Shown in pieces: positions 1-64,000 of a stretch of 64,000 nt of DNA. The stretch is from Odiellus spinosus (taxonomy: Eukaryota > Arthropoda > Arachnida > Opiliones > Phalangiidae), in assembly GCA_963920705.1 (NCBI GenBank), contig OY987230.1, positions 11,867,320-11,931,319 of the forward strand, read 5' to 3'. The notes beneath the pieces were generated by a model. The model saw only the letters and a program-made list of their open reading frames with translations, did no database searches and was not told the origin of the DNA. How positions within the stretch are numbered: the first letter of the stretch is position 1; every line of letters begins with the position of its first letter. Position numbers and translations under genes: made by a program.

Positions 1-864
1 AGTGTAGAAAATAGTCTACGAAATAGTGTAGAAAATAGTCTACGAAATAGTGTAGAAAATAGTCTACGAAATAGTGTAGAAAATAGTCTACGAAATAGTG
101 TAGAAAATAGTCTACGAAATAGTGTAGAAAATAGTCTACGAAATAGTGTAGAAAATAGTCTACGAAATAGTGTAGAAAATAGTCTACGAAATAGTGTAGA
201 AAATAGTCTACGAAATAGTGTAGAAAATAGTCTACGAAATAGTGTAGAAAATAGTCTACGAAATAGTGTAGAAAATAGTCTACGAAATAGTGTAGAAAAT
301 AGTCTACGAAATAGTGTAGAAAATAGTCTACGAAATAGTGTAGAAAATAGTCTACGAAATAGTGTAGAAAATAGTCTACGAAATAGTGTAGAAAATAGTC
401 TACGAAATAGTGTAGAAAATAGTCTACGAAATAGTGTAGAAAATAGTCTACGAAATAGTGTAGAAAATAGTCTACGAAATAGTGTAGAAAATAGTCTACG
501 AAATAGTGTAGAAAATAGTCTACGAAATAGTGTAGAAAATAGTCTACGAAATAGTGTAGAAAATAGTCTACGAAATAGTGTAGAAAATAGTCTACGAAAT
601 AGTGTAGAAAATAGTGTAGAAAATAGTCTACGAAATAGTGTAGAAAATAGTCTACGAAATAGTGTAGAAAATAGTCTACGAAATAGTGTAGAAAATAGTC
701 TACGAAATAGTGTAGAAAATAGTCTACGAAATAGTGTAGAAAATAGTCTACGAAATAGTGTAGAAAATAGTCTACGAAATAGTGTAGAAAATAGTCTACG
801 AAATAGTGTAGAAAATAGTCTACGAAATAGTGTAGAAAATAGTCTACGAAATAGTGTAGAAAAT
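1..864. repeat. Satellite array of alternating 12-bp half-units
   Basis: The first 864 bases are an almost perfect tandem array. Two 12-bp half-units alternate: A is AGTGTAGAAAAT and B is AGTCTACGAAAT, giving a 24-bp repeat. There are 72 half-units. The only visible irregularity is at 601-624, where two A half-units follow each other. The array begins at the window edge, so its true length is unknown. Each A-B junction contains GTAGAAAATAGTCTAC, whose 5-base arms GTAGA/TCTAC are complementary and could form a short hairpin. Near-identity of the copies suggests recent expansion or ongoing homogenisation. No spacers exist, so it is not a CRISPR array. Confidence 0.98.
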
Positions 865-1490: not shown

Positions 1491-2017
1491 TAATACCAGA
1501 CTTTTAAAATTCCGATTACTCGCAGAATATTTTTGAAAAACTTTTTTCTTCCATCATGGTTATTCGTGAAAAACACGTCAATTTAATGTCCGTAATTTTC
1601 GTGCAATTTGAGCGTTCGAGATTGGTGCAAAAAGGCTCCGGGGCAATAATATCGAAACACGGGGAGGTGTGGGGAGAACGAAAAATATATAAAATTTGAT
1701 CTTGAAGCCACTAACCAGTTTGACTCGCTCGACGGCATTTTCAACGCTTAGAAGGTTTTTCACATTGAAGAAAAAAAAAAAGTTATTCTTGCGCAACGTG
1801 TGGAAATTTTAGCCAGGGTTCGTTAGGGGTTGGTAGTAGGAAAAATAAAAAATATATATATATATACCTTGATGTCAGAAGTAACTTTAAAATTAAGTGA
1901 GTCGTTCCAGTTTCTAGATTAATATTGAAACGGTTTTAAGAGGGATTTAGGTAGATTTCTTCCAAGGAAAATTTAATTTAGATCATATATTCTAAATTTT
2001 TAGATCTATATTCTTCA
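1491..2017. other. AT-rich stretch without a recognised gene
   Basis: No exon-like open frame, RNA gene or well-bounded repeat was recognised. There is a short (TA)n run near 1851-1866. Short reading frames here have no domain-like sequence. Confidence 0.5.
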
Positions 2018-2460
2018 CAGAAATTTAAATTTATATATCTATATTTTTCATAGAAATTTAAATTTATATATCTATATTTTTCATAGAAATTTAAATTTAT
2101 ATATCTATATTTTTCATAGAAATTTAAATTTATATATCTATATTTTTCATAGAAAATATTTAAATTTATATATCTATATTTTTCATAGAAATTTAAATTT
2201 ATATATCTATATTTTTCATAGAAAATATTTAAATTTATATATCTATATTTTTCATAGAAATTTAAATTTATATATCTATATTTTTCATAGAAAATATAAA
2301 TTTATTTTTAAATGTATATTTTTCATAGAAATTTAAATTTATATATCTATATTTTTCATAGAAATTTAAATTTATATATCTATATTTTTCATAGAAAATA
2401 TTTAAATTTATATATCTATATTTTTCATAGAAAATATTTAAATTTTGATTAATTTTTCAT
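2018..2460. repeat. AT-rich tandem array, unit about 33-38 bp
   Basis: About a dozen tandem copies of a unit containing ATTTATATATCTATATTTTT followed by CATAGAA. Most units are 33 bp. Some carry a 5-bp insertion that changes TTTAAATTT to ATATTTAAATTT. The array decays gradually to the right, with diverged copies of TTTTTCAT(A)GAAAAT up to about 2575. It is a non-coding minisatellite. Confidence 0.92.
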
Positions 2461-2575
2461 AGAAAATAGTTTTAAATATAAAATTTTTCATAAAAAATAT
2501 TTTTAAATTTAAATCAATATTTTTCATTGAAAATATTTAGTTAAATTTAAGTCTATATTTTCATATATTTTTAGA

Positions 2576-53411: not shown

Positions 53412-53649
53412 GCCAGAGGATGTTGAAAAAGCTTTGGAGGTTTCCAAAGATAAGCTGTTCTTTGGTTGTAAAATTGAAGTTACGGCGCACGAAGGGCTTG
53501 ATGGCGAAGATAACGAGTTTAGGCCGCTGGAAGCGGATCTGGATGAATTTCACCCGAAAGCGACAAGAACTTTGTTTATCGGAAACCTGGAAAAGGACAT
53601 CACCACTACCGAACTGAGAAAGCACTTTGATCAGTTCGGAGAGATTATC
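53412..53649 (+). CDS. spen: spen exon 7 in window: end of RRM2 and start of RRM3
   Basis: It reads P-E-D-V-E-K-A-L-E-V-S-K-D-K-L-F-F-G-C-K-I-E-V-T-A (end of RRM2) and the interdomain linker N-E-F-R-P-L-E-A-D-L-D-E-F-H-P-K-A-T. Then comes the RRM3 RNP2 strand R-T-L-F-I-G-N-L, ending E-I-I at a phase-0 donor (GTAAGT). The linker is nearly identical in human SPEN (N-E-F-R-P-L-D-E-R-I-D-E-F-H-P-K-A-T). The preceding intron is 74 bases long. Confidence 0.98.
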
Positions 53650-53751: not shown

Positions 53752-54245
53752 GAAATCGACATTAAGAAACAAGGTTCGGCTTCTTCTTACGCGTTCATCC
53801 AGTATTCGGACATAGGCAGTGTCGTGAAAGCTATGAGAAAACTAGATGGTGAAAATTTAGGCTCGAATAGAATCAAACTCGGTTTCGGTAAAAGTATGCC
53901 CACAAACTGCGTGTGGTTAGACGGCGTAACTGACGGTGTTCTCGAAAAATTCTTAGCTCGGCACTTTAATCGCTTCGGCCCTGTAAACTACACCGCGATA
54001 GACCGCGAGAGGGGTCATGCCCTAGTCTTTTACGATACGACCGAGTTCGCGCAAATTGCGGTGTCGGAAATGCGTGGCAGAGTGCTCGGTGGTAAAAGAC
54101 TTCAAGTGGACTATGCTAGTCGAGAGTGCCAGCAGGTTTTCTTTGAAAAACTAGAGTTGTCAGGGCAACTGATTCCATCGGGATCCGAACGACCGTGGGA
54201 GAGAACTCGAGAAAGGAGGGATTTTGAAGTCATCAGGGATGAAAG
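53752..54245 (+). CDS. spen: spen exon 8 in window: end of RRM3 and all of RRM4
   Basis: RRM3 continues with E-I-D-I-K-K and RNP1 Y-A-F-I-Q-Y-S-D. The RRM3-RRM4 junction L-G-F-G-K-S-M-P-T-N-C-V-W-L-D-G is virtually invariant in Spen proteins. RRM4 has RNP2 V-W-L-D-G-V and RNP1 H-A-L-V-F-Y-D, ending K-R-L-Q-V-D-Y-A-S-R-E. In SPEN, RRM2-4 bind structured RNAs such as SRA and Xist. After RRM4 comes E-S-G-Q-like sequence (L-E-L-S-G-Q-L-I-P), then R-E-R-R-D-F-E-V. This is the strongest piece of homology in the window. Confidence 0.99.
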
Positions 54246-55548: not shown

Positions 55549-56414
55549 GTAAAGCTTGCTAGACTGATTCCTCTCGAAAATTATTATATTTTGGATTTAT
55601 TGTCTAATTGAATCCCTGCAGGTCCTATTTTGATAATTCAGTTAAAAAATTTTTCTTTTTAAATAGATCAGCGCTTTATTTCAAAAAATTAAAAATTATT
55701 CATTTTGCTAAGAAAGAAAAAAGATTTGTCAGTTACTTCCATCAAAAATATATATAAAAACAGAAAAAGAATAACTCGCCGGGCTAATGGTTCTACTCCT
55801 GAGACTCGCCATGAGCCTCTAGTGTACCTAACTACTTTCAGCTTGTTACGTCACTCAAAATGACGTTCCCAATGAGCTCACCTAGTTCAAAATTCGATTG
55901 GTAGTTGAAAATTAGGTGGATCAACCGCCCCCTTTGATACCCCCTTCCCTCTCATTTTTCACGTTTTCCATTGGAAAAGGTAGGAAAGGGTCCAAGTAAT
56001 TCACTTTCTGTTTTTATATATATCTTTGCTTCCATGTAGAAATAATCAAAAGAAATGTATGGCTTTGGAAGTTTACAGGCTTTTTACAAAGATAAAAAAA
56101 TCTGGAAATTTTAGAATGTTGACAAAAAATGTAAACTCTAAAAGTTTGGCCAAAATAAGGGAATTCAGGGACTTACGTTTGTAATTATGAGTATAGCATT
56201 AAATAAGCTTGTTTCAGCTGTAGATTGTTCAACTGAATCGGAAATATCCAGGAAAATTCTTGGAAATAACCTGGAAATATCAGACTTAAGAACCCTGTCT
56301 CTCGAGCTATTAGTTCCCCACGAGTGTTGTTGATTATGAAAAAAAAATACTGTACTACAATTACGAGTATATATTTAGTTTAAATTGGCTTTAATAATAT
56401 TTGATTCGTTTTAG
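55549..56414 (+). other. spen: spen intron between exons 11 and 12
   Basis: An 866-base intron, GTAAAG to GATTCGTTTTAG, dominated by the MITE at 55743-56028. Confidence 0.85.
55743..56028. mobile_element. MITE with 7-bp target duplication in spen intron
   Basis: A 286-bp element. The left end reads CAAAAATATATATAAAAACA and continues GAAAAAGAAT; the right end read inward is CAAAGATATATATAAAAACA with GAAAGTGAAT. The direct repeat CTTCCAT flanks it (55736-55742 and 56029-56035). The 7-bp duplication and CAA...TTG ends resemble those of the 37427-37742 element, although internal sequences differ. No coding capacity was seen. hAT (8 bp expected) or P-type are possible; unassigned. Confidence 0.85.
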
Positions 56415-59400
56415 GTATCTAAGAAGCGACGAATTAGAAGACATTGAGGATGGCAAGGAGCGGATAAAATCAGAAACGTTGGAAAGGCTCTCCAGGAAAA
56501 GGAACAAACATTCTTCTTCTCTGAATTTAACGTTGGAAAATGACGATCACCATAGTCAATCCCCGAATAGATCGAGGCACCAAAGCCGCAGTCAAAGTCC
56601 AGCGTTTTTGGGCAAGGAGAGAAAGAACAGCAAGGAGCTCCAGCATGAAAGAAATCACGGGAGTCATTTGAAAAGTCCAAACAACAGCCAAGGTTCCTCC
56701 CGAGTGTCTAGCCCCTCTCGCGAAAACGACATTACAGATACTCTTATGGATTATACGGATCACAAAGAACTAACGAATAGGCGTAAACTTAGTGTTGATG
56801 GTAAATTTGATCTCAGAGACTCCCTGATGCAGGGTTCGTCGCATCCCGGGCTTAAAAGCGGCGATGGTGTTGTTTTGCACGGAAAATGTGACTCTGACGC
56901 GGTTAAGCGGAAAAGTGCGGAGAGACAAGAAGCTTTAGACGCTAGGCATCCTGATAGCCTAGTTAGCTTTTGCGGACTTTCGGAAAGGAAAAAACGTTTA
57001 TTAGCGATGTCGGGAACCCCGTTAGTTAGAAGCGATTACCATGGTAAAAATAAATCTAGCGAGTGTTTGAGCGCTAGGTCGTCCATAGATTCCAAAAACG
57101 AGTGTGAACTGAATGAAGACAAACACTTAAGGCTAGTAGACTCGCGAAAGAAACACGGACACATATTTCATCTTCTCGATCACTTGGCAGAAAGGAGTTC
57201 CAGCGCGAAGTGCTCTAGTTTAGTAGATAACTGTATAGACAGTGAGAAACCCAGTCATAAAAAAGCCAAGATATTGGTGCGCGATTTGTCCCCTCCATTA
57301 GAGGCTCCTACCAAAGAATTAGCCGTTCTTAGCGGCAAAGACTCGAAAGAGCTGCCTCATCAAAGGCATCTGATACCCGTTATTGAACTCGACCACGGCT
57401 CGGATTACGCGATCATTAACTCTAAACCCAACTTACGAAAGACTGTTTCCGACCCCAGAAATAAATCTTCCGACCTACATCACTCTCATTTCGCGTCTCA
57501 GAGGCTAAAAAAGATGAATGATCTTGATGACGCGACGGGAATAGATCTGCCTCAAGATCATGATGGATTATTAACATCAAACTGGAGAAAATCCTCTTTA
57601 CAACATCCCGCATTCCGTAGGGACGAAACTGAGGTTAACCGCGATAAACTCTCAATACCGCCATTCGGTGTTCAGTTGGCGAACGAAGTATCCTCAACAA
57701 GCGATAGCATTCCACATAGCCGCCATGGAAAATCCCGTTCCCTTTTAGAGTCTATGCACGATTCTAAGAAGGAAAGAGACTCCAGTCCTCTTTCACTTCC
57801 ACTACCTAAGTTCGCAGCCACTCTAAGGACTCCCAAGGCCTCACCCAATCCCCTTTCTTCTCCAACTCCCAGTTCAGTCAGTCCCAATGAAACAACGTCA
57901 CCCAAAAACATTTTCGCACCCTCAAAATTAACACTGGGAACGCCATCGTTGGAAGAGAAGCGGGCGGAGAAAGTGGTTGAGTTACCCGTTCCTATTGAAG
58001 AAGTAAATTCTGTGGAAGTTGAACCAAAAACCGAACCTTTAGTTATTACGACGGACTTTAAGGACAATGACCCGGTCGTGTCCGAAATATCTTCACCCCT
58101 TTTGTCACCCACTGACAAAATATTAGTTAAAGACGTAGAAGAAAGCTGCTCAAGCTCGGAAGAGCCAATCGATACAAACAGACCCTCTATAGAAGAAAGG
58201 ATAAGGGCTTTAGACGAAAAATATAATGCCTGGTCTGGTTCTACTAGAAGTTTCAGTTCCTCATTATCCGGTGATTCGCCTACCACGCCCGCAGTCACGA
58301 TAGACTACCAAAAATATAACATCAAAAGAAGGCCTAGGTACAGCTTTTTAACAAACGATGTTAAACCTGAACCTTCGGAGATTATGAAATCTCTTCTAGC
58401 CAAGTCAACGATATTCGATCAGGACTCCAAGAGACTACAACACATAAATGAAAAATACGAACCGAAAGAGGTCAAAATTGAGACATCTGTTAAAACCAGA
58501 CCATCATTTCGCACTAAAGCAGAGGCGAAAGAGTTTTCGCTACCAATTCAACTCAACACCTTTGTAAATAATATTGTGGTTCCTGCCTCTAATGTGAATA
58601 GTAACGCAGTTGGAATTCTTCCTTCATCACAGTGTTCGCCTGTTGCCTCAACTCACACTGTTATCACGCCACAGGGCATCAAAAACACGGTTGACTCTAT
58701 ACCTTCTTTGAAACCAATGTCGACACCCGAAAAACTTTTGTTGTCAGCTCTTCCACTTACAAAAGTTATGGAACCTTGCAAACCTGTTTCTTGTTTGAAG
58801 GAATTAAAGTCTTCTCCGCAAGCGATTTCGTGCAAACTAACGGTAGACGTTGACAACTGCACCTCAGCGGACTTGCCTATTTCACCAAATGCTGCCATAA
58901 AGAAGGAAGCTCTCAGTCCGGTGAAAACTGAAGCCGTCGCTTTAATTGATCCTAGAAAGGAAGTGAGGGAAAGAACAAGCGGTTCCGCAATATTGAACTG
59001 TTCGGTGCCCATCAAGGAATCCAACCTAAAGAAGGAATCGCCTGAAAGAGAACACAGCAAAAAAGAAGTTAACCATCAAAGTTCAAAGGATACTTCACGA
59101 AAGGACCGGGATTCAACTAAGGAAAGCTCGCATAGGAAGGACCATAACAGAAACAGTAATGGAAAGAAGGAAGAACTATCATCCACCAAAGAAAGTACAT
59201 CCAGTGCTGGAAACGGCGGTTCACATAGAAGAGACAGTATATCTGATACTACTACGAAAGAGTTGAAGGAAAACAAAAAGGAAGGGGCCCACAACTCAAA
59301 CAACGAAACTTTATCCAATCACGTGTCCAACTCCTTGAAACGAAGACTGACGTCTTTAGATAGCAGCGAATCTGATTCTGGGAAGTCTACTGAACAGTCA

Positions 59401-62400
59401 TTCCACGAAAGAGATTCGCGACGAAGGAAAGAGACGCATTTGGAAACCAAAACTTTTGAGCCCGAGAGTAAGAAATCCAGAATGGTCAATTCGATAAAAG
59501 AAGTTGAAAAACTCAGGGAATGTTCTCTTTCCCCACCACCCCTTACTAAGAAACCAACGGAGAGTAAAAAAGAACGGAGCAACAGTGGAAAATCTGAAAA
59601 ATCCAGCAAGTCTTCAAAATACGAAAGTAGCTATGAAAAAGAGGACGCTTTGAAAACTTGCGAACAGAAGTCAAAAAGCAAGCACGAAAGCTCACGGTCA
59701 AAAGATGAGAAGCGAAATAAGAGCAAAGAAGGACGAGAGAAAAACGAGCACTCAAACCGTTCGTCTGAGAAATCTTCATCCAAAACCAAATACAATTCTG
59801 AAAATAAATCAAGTGAAAAGGATTCCCGGAGTACTGGTAGTCATAGCAGTAGCAATAACAGCAAAAGTAGCAGCTCCAAGAAGGAATCCAGTCATGGTAG
59901 TGAAAGGGACAAACATAAAGGAGATAAGAAATCCAACAGTAATTCGGGTGAAAAACCAAAAGAAAATTCAGGATCTTCAAAATCTAAGAACAATAAAAAG
60001 AGGTCAAAGCAAAAACTAAACTTCTGGGAGGATGAACCAGTTTATTTCTCCATGTATGATAAAGTGAAGGCCCGATCCAGCAAAACTCAGACCATCAAAG
60101 AAAAACAAAAAGATTTGGAGTCTGTAAGGCAAAAGTTTAATCAGCTCAAGCAGAGTAGGGCCAAACGAGAGGAGAAATCCAAATCGATGGATAGCGACCG
60201 AGACTCTGACATGCTAATAAGCCCTCACTCATCAGAATCAGATGGAAACAAATCCAAATCCTCCCCACCTCTCAACAAAACTAAACAACTAAAGAAGAAA
60301 AAGCTTGTCATTGAAAGTTCCTCAGACGAAGAAAATAGGCAACCACCTATGGACATTTTCTTCGACGATACCTCTAGTAAATTAGATAAAGAACATTCCA
60401 GTAATTCGGATTCGGATTCTGAATTAGATTTCTGCAAACTAGCGGCGGGTTCTAAGAATAAAACCAAAAAATTAGATATATACGACTTGGATAGCTCTGA
60501 TCAAGAAGAACCCACTCGTTTGAAGTATATTGGCCGGAAGAAAATCAGCAGGCCAAAGTCTTCCTTGGAAAGTACTCAGAATCAAAGACCCAAAGTCATC
60601 AAATCTGATTTTGAAAGCTCTGATAATGAAATGTATGCTCTAAAATCTCTAACTTCTACAACAACACTGGTAAAGAAGAAGGAGCATAAAAAGAAGAAAT
60701 CTTCCAGAAAAGAAAAACAAACTGAAATGAAGAGTGATTATGAATTGTCTGAAGACGACTCGGTTTCAAAAAAAGAATCTATTCAAATTCAAAAGAAGAG
60801 TAGCAAACCGGCTCGAGAGACCATTTCTATCAAAGAAGAACGTACAGGTAGTCAACATAGTGAGAAATTATTTTCGCAATCACAAGAAATGAAAATAGAA
60901 AAGAACTCTAGTGAAGTAGACTCAAAGTCTCACAAAAGTTCAGAGTCTAAAGATGCTAAAGATTCTTTAATGAAATCAAAGAATATAAACGCAAAAAAGA
61001 AAAAGAAGTCCAAGAAAACGTCCAAGGTTAAAGACAAGAAGTCCCATGCCAAATCGGGCCAGGATCAGGATGAGGGTAAAAAGCCAGAGATTGACAAACT
61101 TTCTCAAATTGATGATGATGATGATGAAGATGACGAGGATGCTTCCAGGCAAAAATCACTGTCACCACCACGGCTCCAGAACAATCTGCTGTCGGAAAAT
61201 GAAGAATTTAAGAGTGATTTTTCAGACTATGAGTACGAACATCAAAGATCAACTGAAAAAGAGCATTGTGGTTCATTTTGGCCTGGGACGGATATGAAAG
61301 TTGATTTTGACGCTGAGACATCTCGCTGCGACAGTAGCTCAGTTTTGTCCTTAAGTAAGGGCAAGAAGGCCGCTAACCACTCATTAATGAACAGTGAAAA
61401 CCTATCAGAAAATGAAAGACCATTTTCAGAGGAAGAATACCACCAAAGCCCGACGAAGAAACAAAGCACTGAATCCATAGACAAGTATTCGCCAGTACGG
61501 GATACTACCAGTTCAGACGAAGGAAACAACCGTCTCTTTGAAGACAACTCGTGTATGAATGATTTAGAAAATTCCGACAGGGACTCAATTTCTGAACTAA
61601 AAATCAACAAGCAAGAGGAGGAGAAAAGGAAGAAGAAGAAGGTGATTAAAGATAAGAAGAAAAAGCCCAAAGAAGCTCCTGTGCTAATGCAACCAAAAGA
61701 AATTGCACCTGTAGATCCTGAGCCTATTTGTTCTCCAAACTTCTTTGATAAGATACTTTCCCCGAATGATGATGGAAGCAAGCTTTCTGAAGATCTCAGA
61801 CTTGATGAAGAAATAGCCGAAGAAGCCAGGCGATTAGAAGAAGAACTATTAGCTGCTTCGGAAGAAACCAGCACTTTTGGTGATTCAGAGTCTGTATCAA
61901 AGAAAGAAAGCAAACATCAAGAAAGGCGGTTTGAGGAAGAAGCTGCCAAGGAAACAAGGCGTTTGGAAGAGGAGTTGTTCATGTCTACTCAACATCACTG
62001 GCATTTGAAAGATGATGACAAAAATTACGCAGAAGAATCTCAATCTGTTCCAGTTTTACTAGAAGAAAATCCACCCAAAGAAGCAAAATGCGAAGAAAAA
62101 ATCCAAAACATCATCAAAGAAACAATATATACGGGACTGGACATGGAATCTCCTTTGCCTGTTGAAGGAAACCAGCCAAATCCCATTGATTTTATTATTG
62201 GCAATAACGAAGTTCAAGATCCATTCAAAATGGGAAAAGAAGGTTCTCCTTACGAAATTGATAATGAAAGGAAAATAGAAGATGATTTAGCTGTCTGTGC
62301 ACTTCTGCAAGAAATGAATAATGACATCCCTCCAGATCTTCCCAAAGTAACGGAGTTCTTGGACTCTATGATGGATCAGCATACGGAGGAAGACACAGAT

Positions 62401-64000
62401 GCTGTAAATTACTTACTAGAACAGCAATCAGAACCATTAGGTGAACCCGAATCAGTTCCAGAGCTTAGCCCAGAAAATCTTGAAGATTTCAAGTCTCACC
62501 ACGGGCCTAATATATTTGAAGACCTAGAGGAAAATCCTTTTGCATCTGAACCAATATCACTTCCTAACCAGTCTGATGTACCAAACTTTGAAAATGTTCA
62601 AAGTGAAAAGACACGCCGTGCCTCATCTGAAGTTGACGCGGAAACAGAACTAGCCAGCAATTTTATCATGCCAAAGGAAGATCGAACCTCTATGGAAAAT
62701 ATTGAAGAGCCAGAAAGACCCAATTCCAGCACGATTATTAATGAGAAGCTAGATGACGAGGAAGAGACTGTACCCGAGCCAGTTCCAGTTCATGCTAAAG
62801 AAAGCGAAGTAACTGAGGAAGTTGCTGATAATGCACCACCATCTCCAGCTGAACAACTTGAAAGCATTTCCCACTCTCCCGAAGTTTCCCAACCAGAAAA
62901 TATACCCGAACTTTCTGTTCCAGAATTGCCAGCTGCTGAATTGCCAGCTGCTGAATTGCCAGCTGCTGAATTGCCAGCTACTGAATTGCCAGCTACTGAA
63001 TTGCCAGCTACTGAATTGCCAGCTGCTGAATTTCCAGCTGCTAAATTGCCAGCTGCTGAATTGCCAGCTGCTGAATTGCCAGCTGCTGAATTGCCAGCTG
63101 CTGAATTGCCAGCTGCTGAATTGCCAGCTGTTGAATTGCCAGCTGTTGAATTGCCAGCTGTTGAATTGCCAGCTGCTGAATTGCCAGCTGCTGAATTGCC
63201 AGCTGCTGAATTGCCAGCTGCTGAATTGCCAGCTCCTGAATTGCCAGTTGCTGAATTGCCTGTTCCTGAATTGCCAGCTGCGGAATTGCCTGTTCCTGAA
63301 TTGCCAGCTGCGGAATTGCCAGCTGCGGAATTGCCAGTTCCGGAATTGTCAGTACCAGAATTGCCTGTTCCAGAGTTACCAGTTCCAGAACTCTCAGTTC
63401 CTGAACTTCCTGTTCCCGAGTTATCAGTTCCTGAGCTTCCTGTTCCAGAACTGCCAGTTCCAGAACCTCCCGTTCAAGAGCTGTCAATCCCGGAACTCCC
63501 AGTTTCAAATCTGTCATCGAATGAAATGGATGGAGAATCGGATATGACAAAATCTGAATGCAAGAAACAGAAGAAAAAGAAGCGCAAGGACAGCAAAGGG
63601 AAGCGAGATTCCAAAGATGAATTTGACGCCAGTCAGTTGGAAATTCAAAAAGATCTTGCTGACAGTTTCCTTAATCTTAGTGAACTCTCAAACACCAACA
63701 TCACACCTTCCATACCTCCAGTTTTGGAAGTCGAGAAACCGAAAGACATCTCCCATCCTTTGAATTTACTCAGTCAACACGGTGACTATGGCAATGATCT
63801 TCATGCAAAAATTCACAAAGATCCATTCAGACCAACTTTGTTCAAAGACAAAATATTCAAAGAACAGCTACTGGAAAGTCTTTCTAATACCAGACAAGTG
63901 CATCACTTCAAGGAGAATACCTTCAAGGAAGTGATTGAACCTTTTATGAAGAAAGAAGAATTGTTCAAAAAAGAACTTGATTTTCCCAAGACAGATTCAG
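56415..64000 (+). CDS. spen: spen exon 12: giant exon, central disordered region, runs off window
   Basis: After the acceptor GATTCGTTTTAG the frame is open for 7,586 bases to the window end, over 2,500 codons, with no stop. One giant exon for this region is also usual in other animals' Spen genes. The sequence is Ser/Lys/Glu/Asp-rich and mostly disordered. Conserved-looking islands are R-I-R-A-L-D-E-K-Y-N-A-W near 58198; S-T-I-F-D-Q-D-S-K-R-L-Q-H-I at 58405-58446 (human SPEN: S-S-I-F-E-Q-D-S-K-R-L-Q-H-L); and P-V-Y-F-S-M-Y-D-K-V-K-A-R-S-S-K near 60040. Also visible are an acidic run (D5-E-D2-E-D) at 61111-61140, two related E-E-x-R-R-L-E-E-E-L segments near 61821 and 61935, Lys-rich NLS-like clusters (61621-61670, 63565-63605), and 40 pentapeptides at 62911-63510. 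The co-repressor-binding SPOC domain should follow beyond the window. Confidence 0.97.
62911..63510 (+). repeat. 40 tandem 15-bp units coding L-P-x-x-E
   Basis: Exactly 40 in-frame 15-base units inside exon 12. The core (about 62926-63240) is mostly TTGCCAGCTGCTGAA, coding L-P-A-A-E, with A-T, A-V and V-A variants and one F-P-A-A-K unit. The 3' third shifts to L-P-V-P-E and L-S-V-P-E with much more synonymous change. The gradient implies an old V-P-E array with a recent expansion of the A-A-E type. In other frames the array yields spurious Leu-Leu-Asn-Cys-Gln and Ala-Ile-Gln-Gln-Leu proteins. Its function is unknown. Confidence 0.98.

Follow-up and report, generated by a model that had tools for sequence, protein, structure and literature searches.

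The pentapeptide array at positions 62911-63510 of the window, the whole 64,000-nucleotide stretch of DNA that was analysed, is a repeat expansion of an unusual type, though one with precedents, within a flexible part of the gene-silencing protein Spen. According to our preferred reading, to which we assign a probability of roughly 0.58, it is a coding minisatellite in the disordered RRM-SPOC linker of the Odiellus spinosus protein and alters the length and the chemistry of that linker, rather than adding a new domain.

The array is on the forward strand in a giant putative Spen exon that occupies positions 56398-64000 of the window in the open-frame listing and that, when the window was joined with the downstream DNA, remained open from stop to stop over 4036 codons (56398-68505). 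Two open frames upstream of this frame matched the RRM profile, both on the forward strand, with the N-terminal part of an RRM at 53572-53646 (PF00076 positions 1-25, 27.1 bits, cut-off 20.7) and the best PF00076 stretch at 53920-54102 (53.6 bits for its frame, cut-off 20.7). Downstream of the array, a SPOC match was detected at C6:11938144-11938347 (joined coordinate 70825, 44.8 bits, cut-off 25), which covers profile positions 5-67 of 153 and is one of three SPOC matches that the profile search returned for the genome. It contains one in-frame TAG, which is presumably due to an intron. As RRMs are found upstream and a SPOC domain downstream, the gene carrying the array is identified by its profile matches as Spen of this harvestman (Opiliones), in agreement with the initial annotation. 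The same annotation had placed the array next to the C-terminal part of the protein, which has to be corrected, as the array begins about 2,170 codons into the open frame of about 4,000 codons and thus lies mid-protein, the genomic distance from its start to the SPOC match being about 7.3 kb. Soon after the array, the translation reads into a Lys/Arg-rich stretch (approximately 63559-63609, forward strand).

Unit division of the 4036-codon frame confirmed what had been claimed from the letters alone, namely that 62911-63510 is filled exactly by 40 units of 15 bp, every one of them in the Spen frame. The strict pattern LPxxE is present in 32 of the 40 units and the relaxed pattern L[PS]xxE in 37, the three exceptions being FPAAK, PPVQE, and LPVSN. 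The most frequent unit is LPAAE (16 copies), followed by LPVPE (8), LSVPE (4), LPATE (3), and LPAVE (3), and six unit types occur once (FPAAK, LPAPE, LPVAE, PPVQE, LSIPE, and LPVSN). At the DNA level, 21 distinct units can be distinguished. Tandem Repeats Finder, which had been proposed as a check, called 62923-63352 with 28.7 copies, 93% match, and a score of 699.

The chance origin of the array is excluded, because its longest unbroken L[PS]xxE run comprises 28 units, whereas shuffling the residues of the exon protein 1000 times produced a longest run of 2 units in 7 cases, of 1 unit in 992 cases, and of 0 in one case. An assembly artefact was also considered and is not supported, because the assembly is based on HiFi reads with a QV of 60.6, as given in excerpts of the genome description (PMC11503004), and because the array is 600 bp long, includes units that differ from each other, and preserves the reading frame. 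A DNA search of the animal's own genome for a second allele, which skipped simple repeats, gave one match only. Five strings of the array were found in no paper of the literature searched, and nothing alike appeared among the papers listed for Spen and for repeats.

The array is composed of layers of different age. Unit 1 (62911-62925, LSVPE) at the 5' edge is of an old type and is followed by a young block of units 2-21 (62926-63225), which consists of LPAAE together with three LPATE units, three LPAVE units, and FPAAK. Units 22-29 (63226-63345) form a transition in which LPAPE, LPVAE, LPVPE, and LPAAE are mixed; units 30-37 (63346-63465) constitute the old core of LPVPE and LSVPE; and units 38-40 (63466-63510; PPVQE, LSIPE, LPVSN) are a degenerate 3' edge. 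All of these layers are on the forward strand. The near-identity of the 5' and central copies and the synonymous divergence at the 3' end were thus both found as described, with the 3' units being the older ones. The near-identity of the 5' part applies to units 2-21, but not to unit 1. With an old-type unit in first place, the young block is enclosed by an older array, which therefore grew internally, close to its 5' edge.

The minimal changes within these layers are distributed very differently. In the young block, all 4 changes are non-synonymous and 0 are synonymous, which is compatible with neutrality (P = 0.27), whereas the old core contains 9 synonymous changes and only 1 non-synonymous change (P = 1.3e-4 against the neutral expectation). 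Inclusion of the edge units 38-40 in the old side gave 12 synonymous versus 7 non-synonymous changes and thereby a weaker excess (P = 0.0024), and the transition units have 3 versus 2 (P = 0.14). Young and old differed in a Fisher test with P = 0.005, or P = 0.037 with the degenerate edge units. The block limits were set post hoc, after the units had been seen, and the boundaries were then varied; the synonymous excess of the old side held with P values from 4e-5 to 0.023 over 17 boundaries (start units 18-34), with the 3' end at unit 37 or 40 and a kappa of 1, 2, or 4. Pairwise comparisons gave a pS of 0 and a pN of 0.067 for the young block, and a pS of 0.687 and a pN of 0.089 for units 30-37. 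The synonymous excess in units 30-37 shows that the LPVPE/LSVPE core has been conserved as protein while its codons turned over, which is protein-level constraint. The changes in the LPAAE block are indistinguishable from neutral drift, either because the block is too recent or because it is too little constrained.

Identical units lie next to each other in 14 cases, compared to 4.4 expected, a number that was reached in 0 of 20,000 shuffles, and duplication of adjacent units is visible. Inside the young block alone there are 13 such pairs versus 8.4 expected (P = 0.005). As the variant units are also grouped in runs, three LPATE and three LPAVE, the pattern suggests that the array grew step by step, through duplication of single units or of a few at a time. 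An LPVPE-LPAAE pair occurs twice in succession in units 24-27 (63256-63315), and it is plausible that this pair represents a bridge from LPVPE to LPAAE via the exchanges GTT to GCT and CCG to GCG. In a hairpin test, 120 nt of the young block (63046-63165) folded better than shuffles, with z values of -3.2 on the forward and -2.5 on the reverse strand, whereas the first 120 nt of the young block (z -1.4) and the old core (z -0.8 and -1.8) did so only weakly. A role of DNA hairpins in driving the expansion is suggestive only.

The Spen frame holds a second tandem array shortly beyond the window, at joined positions 65254-66344 (L002:3574-4664), outside the DNA on which the initial annotation was based. 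It is built of 24-bp units that encode octapeptides such as SHEEGKHK, THDEGKLK, and DEDTKNKM and is arranged as an NKM-type block (TRF score 311), the THDEGKLK block and a long SHEEGKHK block (together 744), and then 27-bp units. The 12 units of the NKM block have 6 synonymous and 17 non-synonymous changes (P = 0.11-0.41), the 6 units of the THDEGKLK block have 0 and 2, and the 19 units of the SHEEGKHK block have 5 and 6 (P = 0.015 at kappa 1 and 0.11 at kappa 4). Constraint on the second array is weak or absent. With two repeat gains in one exon, the pentapeptide array becomes less singular, and the linker has evidently gained repeats more than once, which favors its interpretation as a linker minisatellite. 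Further tandem arrays were seen elsewhere in the window and downstream of it, namely 36 copies of a 24-bp unit with 99% match at window positions 1-864, an AT-rich array with periods of 33 and 69 bp at 1993-2532 (both called by TRF), and, downstream of Spen at joined positions 87729-89099 (L004), 65 copies of a 21-bp unit with 98% match.

The search of the array protein against the animal's own genome yielded at least 111 matches, with 150 of 1843 candidates scored, and five of these matches overlap the array itself. Of the other 106, we inspected 18 loci, a biased sample from which no rate can be derived, and the readable ones mostly contained 15-bp satellites drawn in by the period-5 query. 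Several of these satellites (L026, L027, L028, L031, L037, and L040) are open in several frames at once. Among the candidates scored, the best non-self match, L021:1510-1680 on contig C18, has its own LPAVE-type 15-bp array of about 10 units, and the frames beside it are presumably THAP-like and DDE-transposase-like. In a related copy on contig C275 (L046), the tract is much shorter, and the anchor sequence sought in a further locus (L045) was not found there. No common origin of the C18 array and the Spen array emerged from these loci. Several partial COX1 matches on contig C17 (L009-L015) are likely nuclear copies of mitochondrial DNA. On the mitochondrial contig C286 (L016/L017), trnL2(UUR) adjoins nad1, trnQ and trnI adjoin trnL1, and about 870 bp between trnL1 and trnL2 contain only one doubtful tRNA call. 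This gene order, considered alongside excerpts of PMC2231378 and PMC3325882, speaks against an insect or a crustacean because of the position of trnL2 next to nad1.

With respect to its chemistry, the array carries a net charge of -37 over 200 residues and has 25% Pro, 19% Leu, and a mean hydropathy of +0.36. It tops the frame for hydropathy, Leu, and Pro, as none of the 3437 outside windows of 200 residues equals it on any of the three. By the charge-hydropathy rule, the array falls on the folded side of the boundary, which counts against simple disorder, and it is not a typical disordered sequence. Proline at every fifth residue disfavors a long alpha-helix. AlphaFold2 was run without alignment and without a positive control on 260 residues around the array (mean pLDDT 52.5, pTM 0.14) and on the 28 units 2-29 (mean pLDDT 60.3, pTM 0.11), and these single-sequence models of low confidence predicted neither helix nor strand inside the array. 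The suggestions of the initial annotation that the array could be an acidic rod or a multivalent binding surface received no support from these analyses: AlphaFold2 gave no structure, 58 of the 3437 other windows are more negative, with the 200 residues just upstream carrying -43, and PxVxL, the one named docking motif that was looked for, has three copies that fit a single substitution.

The array combines older LPVPE/LSVPE units, whose protein sequence was preserved as their codons changed, with a younger LPAAE block close to the 5' edge, where identical units cluster in the way that recurrent duplication of single units or of a few at a time would produce. In our preferred reading, the 200-residue tract would be an extended, proline-interrupted, and non-globular segment, acidic and regularly studded with leucines, that may set the length and stickiness of the linker instead of forming a new domain, and its number of units would be only loosely constrained. 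Support from outside comes from mouse SPEN, for which excerpts of a published study report that the disordered region is necessary for assembly formation and can largely be substituted by a foreign disordered region (PMC10660550). A natural Spen with two linker arrays, one of which has a constrained old core, would provide a natural series on the effects of linker length and chemistry.

As an alternative to such a role in the linker, the whole array, old and young, could be a functionless result of slippage that a permissive linker tolerates. This would be in line with the young block showing no sign of selection, with the weaker or absent constraint on the second array, and with a transposase-like locus elsewhere in the genome having its own LPAVE-type array, but it does not account for the 9 synonymous changes versus 1 non-synonymous change in the old core, and we regard it as rather unlikely. 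Less probable still is that each unit acts as a short linear motif in a multivalent docking array, with recruitment of HP1 via PxVxL as the candidate function. Spen itself is a corepressor, the HP1 box of another corepressor, TIF1beta, has the motif PXVXL according to excerpts of PMC2474647, and the array contains three exact matches (PAVEL at 63124, 63139, and 63154) of the four in the 4036-codon frame, the fourth being a PPVIL outside the array. However, the three PAVEL copies are in adjacent identical units and fit a single GCT to GTT change that was later copied, and the older constrained units LPVPE and LSVPE do not match PxVxL. We likewise see little room for a region resembling acidic activation domains, in which spaced leucines would be held exposed by Glu and Pro and would bind coactivators. 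The net charge and the Leu and Pro contents of the array would suit such a region, and acidic activation domains can reportedly be predicted from clusters of acidic and hydrophobic residues (excerpts of PMC10550315), but aromatic residues are absent from the array except for one Phe, and the density of Glu and Leu, with one of each in every pentapeptide, is modest.

A folded alternative, which we consider similarly improbable, is a pentapeptide-repeat solenoid, since the A-E-L-P-A register of the young block sets Ala at position i-2 and Leu at position i. In the right-handed quadrilateral beta-helix proteins HetL and Np275/Np276, these two positions face inward. A phmmer search of the array against PDB sequences returned 13 sequences at E values up to 0.01, with matches to All3740/HetL (4.4e-7), to NP275-NP276 (1.1e-6), and to constructs termed beta1 (down to 1.6e-12), which we take to be designed repeats of the pentapeptide-repeat type; other PDB matches were IcmE/DotG and ApoB. 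The identical search with two of the six scrambles made yielded 2 and 1 weak matches (best E 0.003), none of them to pentapeptide-repeat proteins. The Pfam profile Decapeptide (PF25296, cut-off 45) scored 64.3 bits with the array alone and 51.4 bits with units 2-22, but only 23.4, 21.8, and 19 bits with three of the six scrambles and nothing with the other three. As the scrambles score lower, the likeness lies in the order of the residues and not in composition alone. Moreover, i-2 fits the consensus in all 20 repeats of the young block (24 of 39 overall), 38 of 39 repeats have a large hydrophobic residue at i, and position i-1 is occupied by Glu or Lys, which is permitted by the 2019 consensus quoted in excerpts of PMC8145042, where HetL and Np275/276 are treated as pentapeptide-repeat proteins. 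For HglK, a looser consensus AXLXX is described in the excerpted literature, and the array contains, in its period only, the at least eight contiguous five-residue repeats by which such proteins are defined there.

Other features of the array speak against the solenoid. The 2019 consensus, which in the excerpts of PMC8145042 has S/T/R/E/Q/K/V/D at i+1 and G/D/E/N/R/Q/K at i+2, allows neither the Pro that 35 of 39 repeats have at i+1 nor the Ala, Val, or Ile at i+2, and the Asp or Asn that an older consensus places at i-1 is found in 0 of 39 repeats. The PF00805 profile was absent for the array at E values up to 10, PF25296 reached only 44.2 bits, just below its cut-off, in the whole 2534-aa frame, and no strands appeared in the AlphaFold2 models (single sequence, low confidence, no positive control). 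The old side fits least, as a suitable i-2 is present in 0 of 10 of units 29-38, and the old 12-unit piece (63331-63510) had no Pfam match and yielded only ApoB in the PDB search. The likeness thus comes mainly from the young side, and we treat it as convergence in sequence and not as family membership. That the recent expansion shifted an old constrained, proline-rich LPVPE/LSVPE tract into an A-x-L-x-x register, and that a solenoid-like segment, folded or folding conditionally, is thereby arising by repeat duplication in the linker of a conserved animal corepressor, is the boldest of the scenarios considered here and a very improbable one. The interpretation as a linker minisatellite is weakened to some extent, because the array is hydrophobic, falls where the charge-hydropathy rule predicts folding, and is more pentapeptide-repeat-like than its scrambles. 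The extensin-like and Apolipoprotein B matches of the array were dismissed as effects of composition and periodicity, given that three of six scrambles hit Extensin_1 as well and one of two hit ApoB.

In comparison to known systems, the array shares a periodic Pro-rich sequence with the extensin-like Pro-rich repeats (PF02095), but its 21.8 bits are far under the cut-off of 105, and two of the six scrambles scored higher (58 and 90.9 bits). With the pentapeptide-repeat proteins (PF00805; HetL and Np275/276) and the Decapeptide family (PF25296), it has in common the five-residue period, Leu at i, and, in the young block, Ala, Thr, or Val at i-2; it differs from them by Pro at i+1 nearly throughout, the missing PF00805 match, the unfitting old core, and the lack of predicted strands. 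With the coding minisatellites in disordered protein regions, it shares in-frame tandem units, a homogenised young part, a diverged old part, and clustered variants, although the LPxxE strings of Odiellus spinosus were found in no paper in the literature search. The host protein resembles the SPEN/Spen/SHARP family as outlined in excerpts of PMC10660550, as RRMs, a very long linker, and a C-terminal SPOC domain are also found in the Odiellus spinosus gene, and the difference that we note is that here the linker exon bears two expanded tandem arrays.
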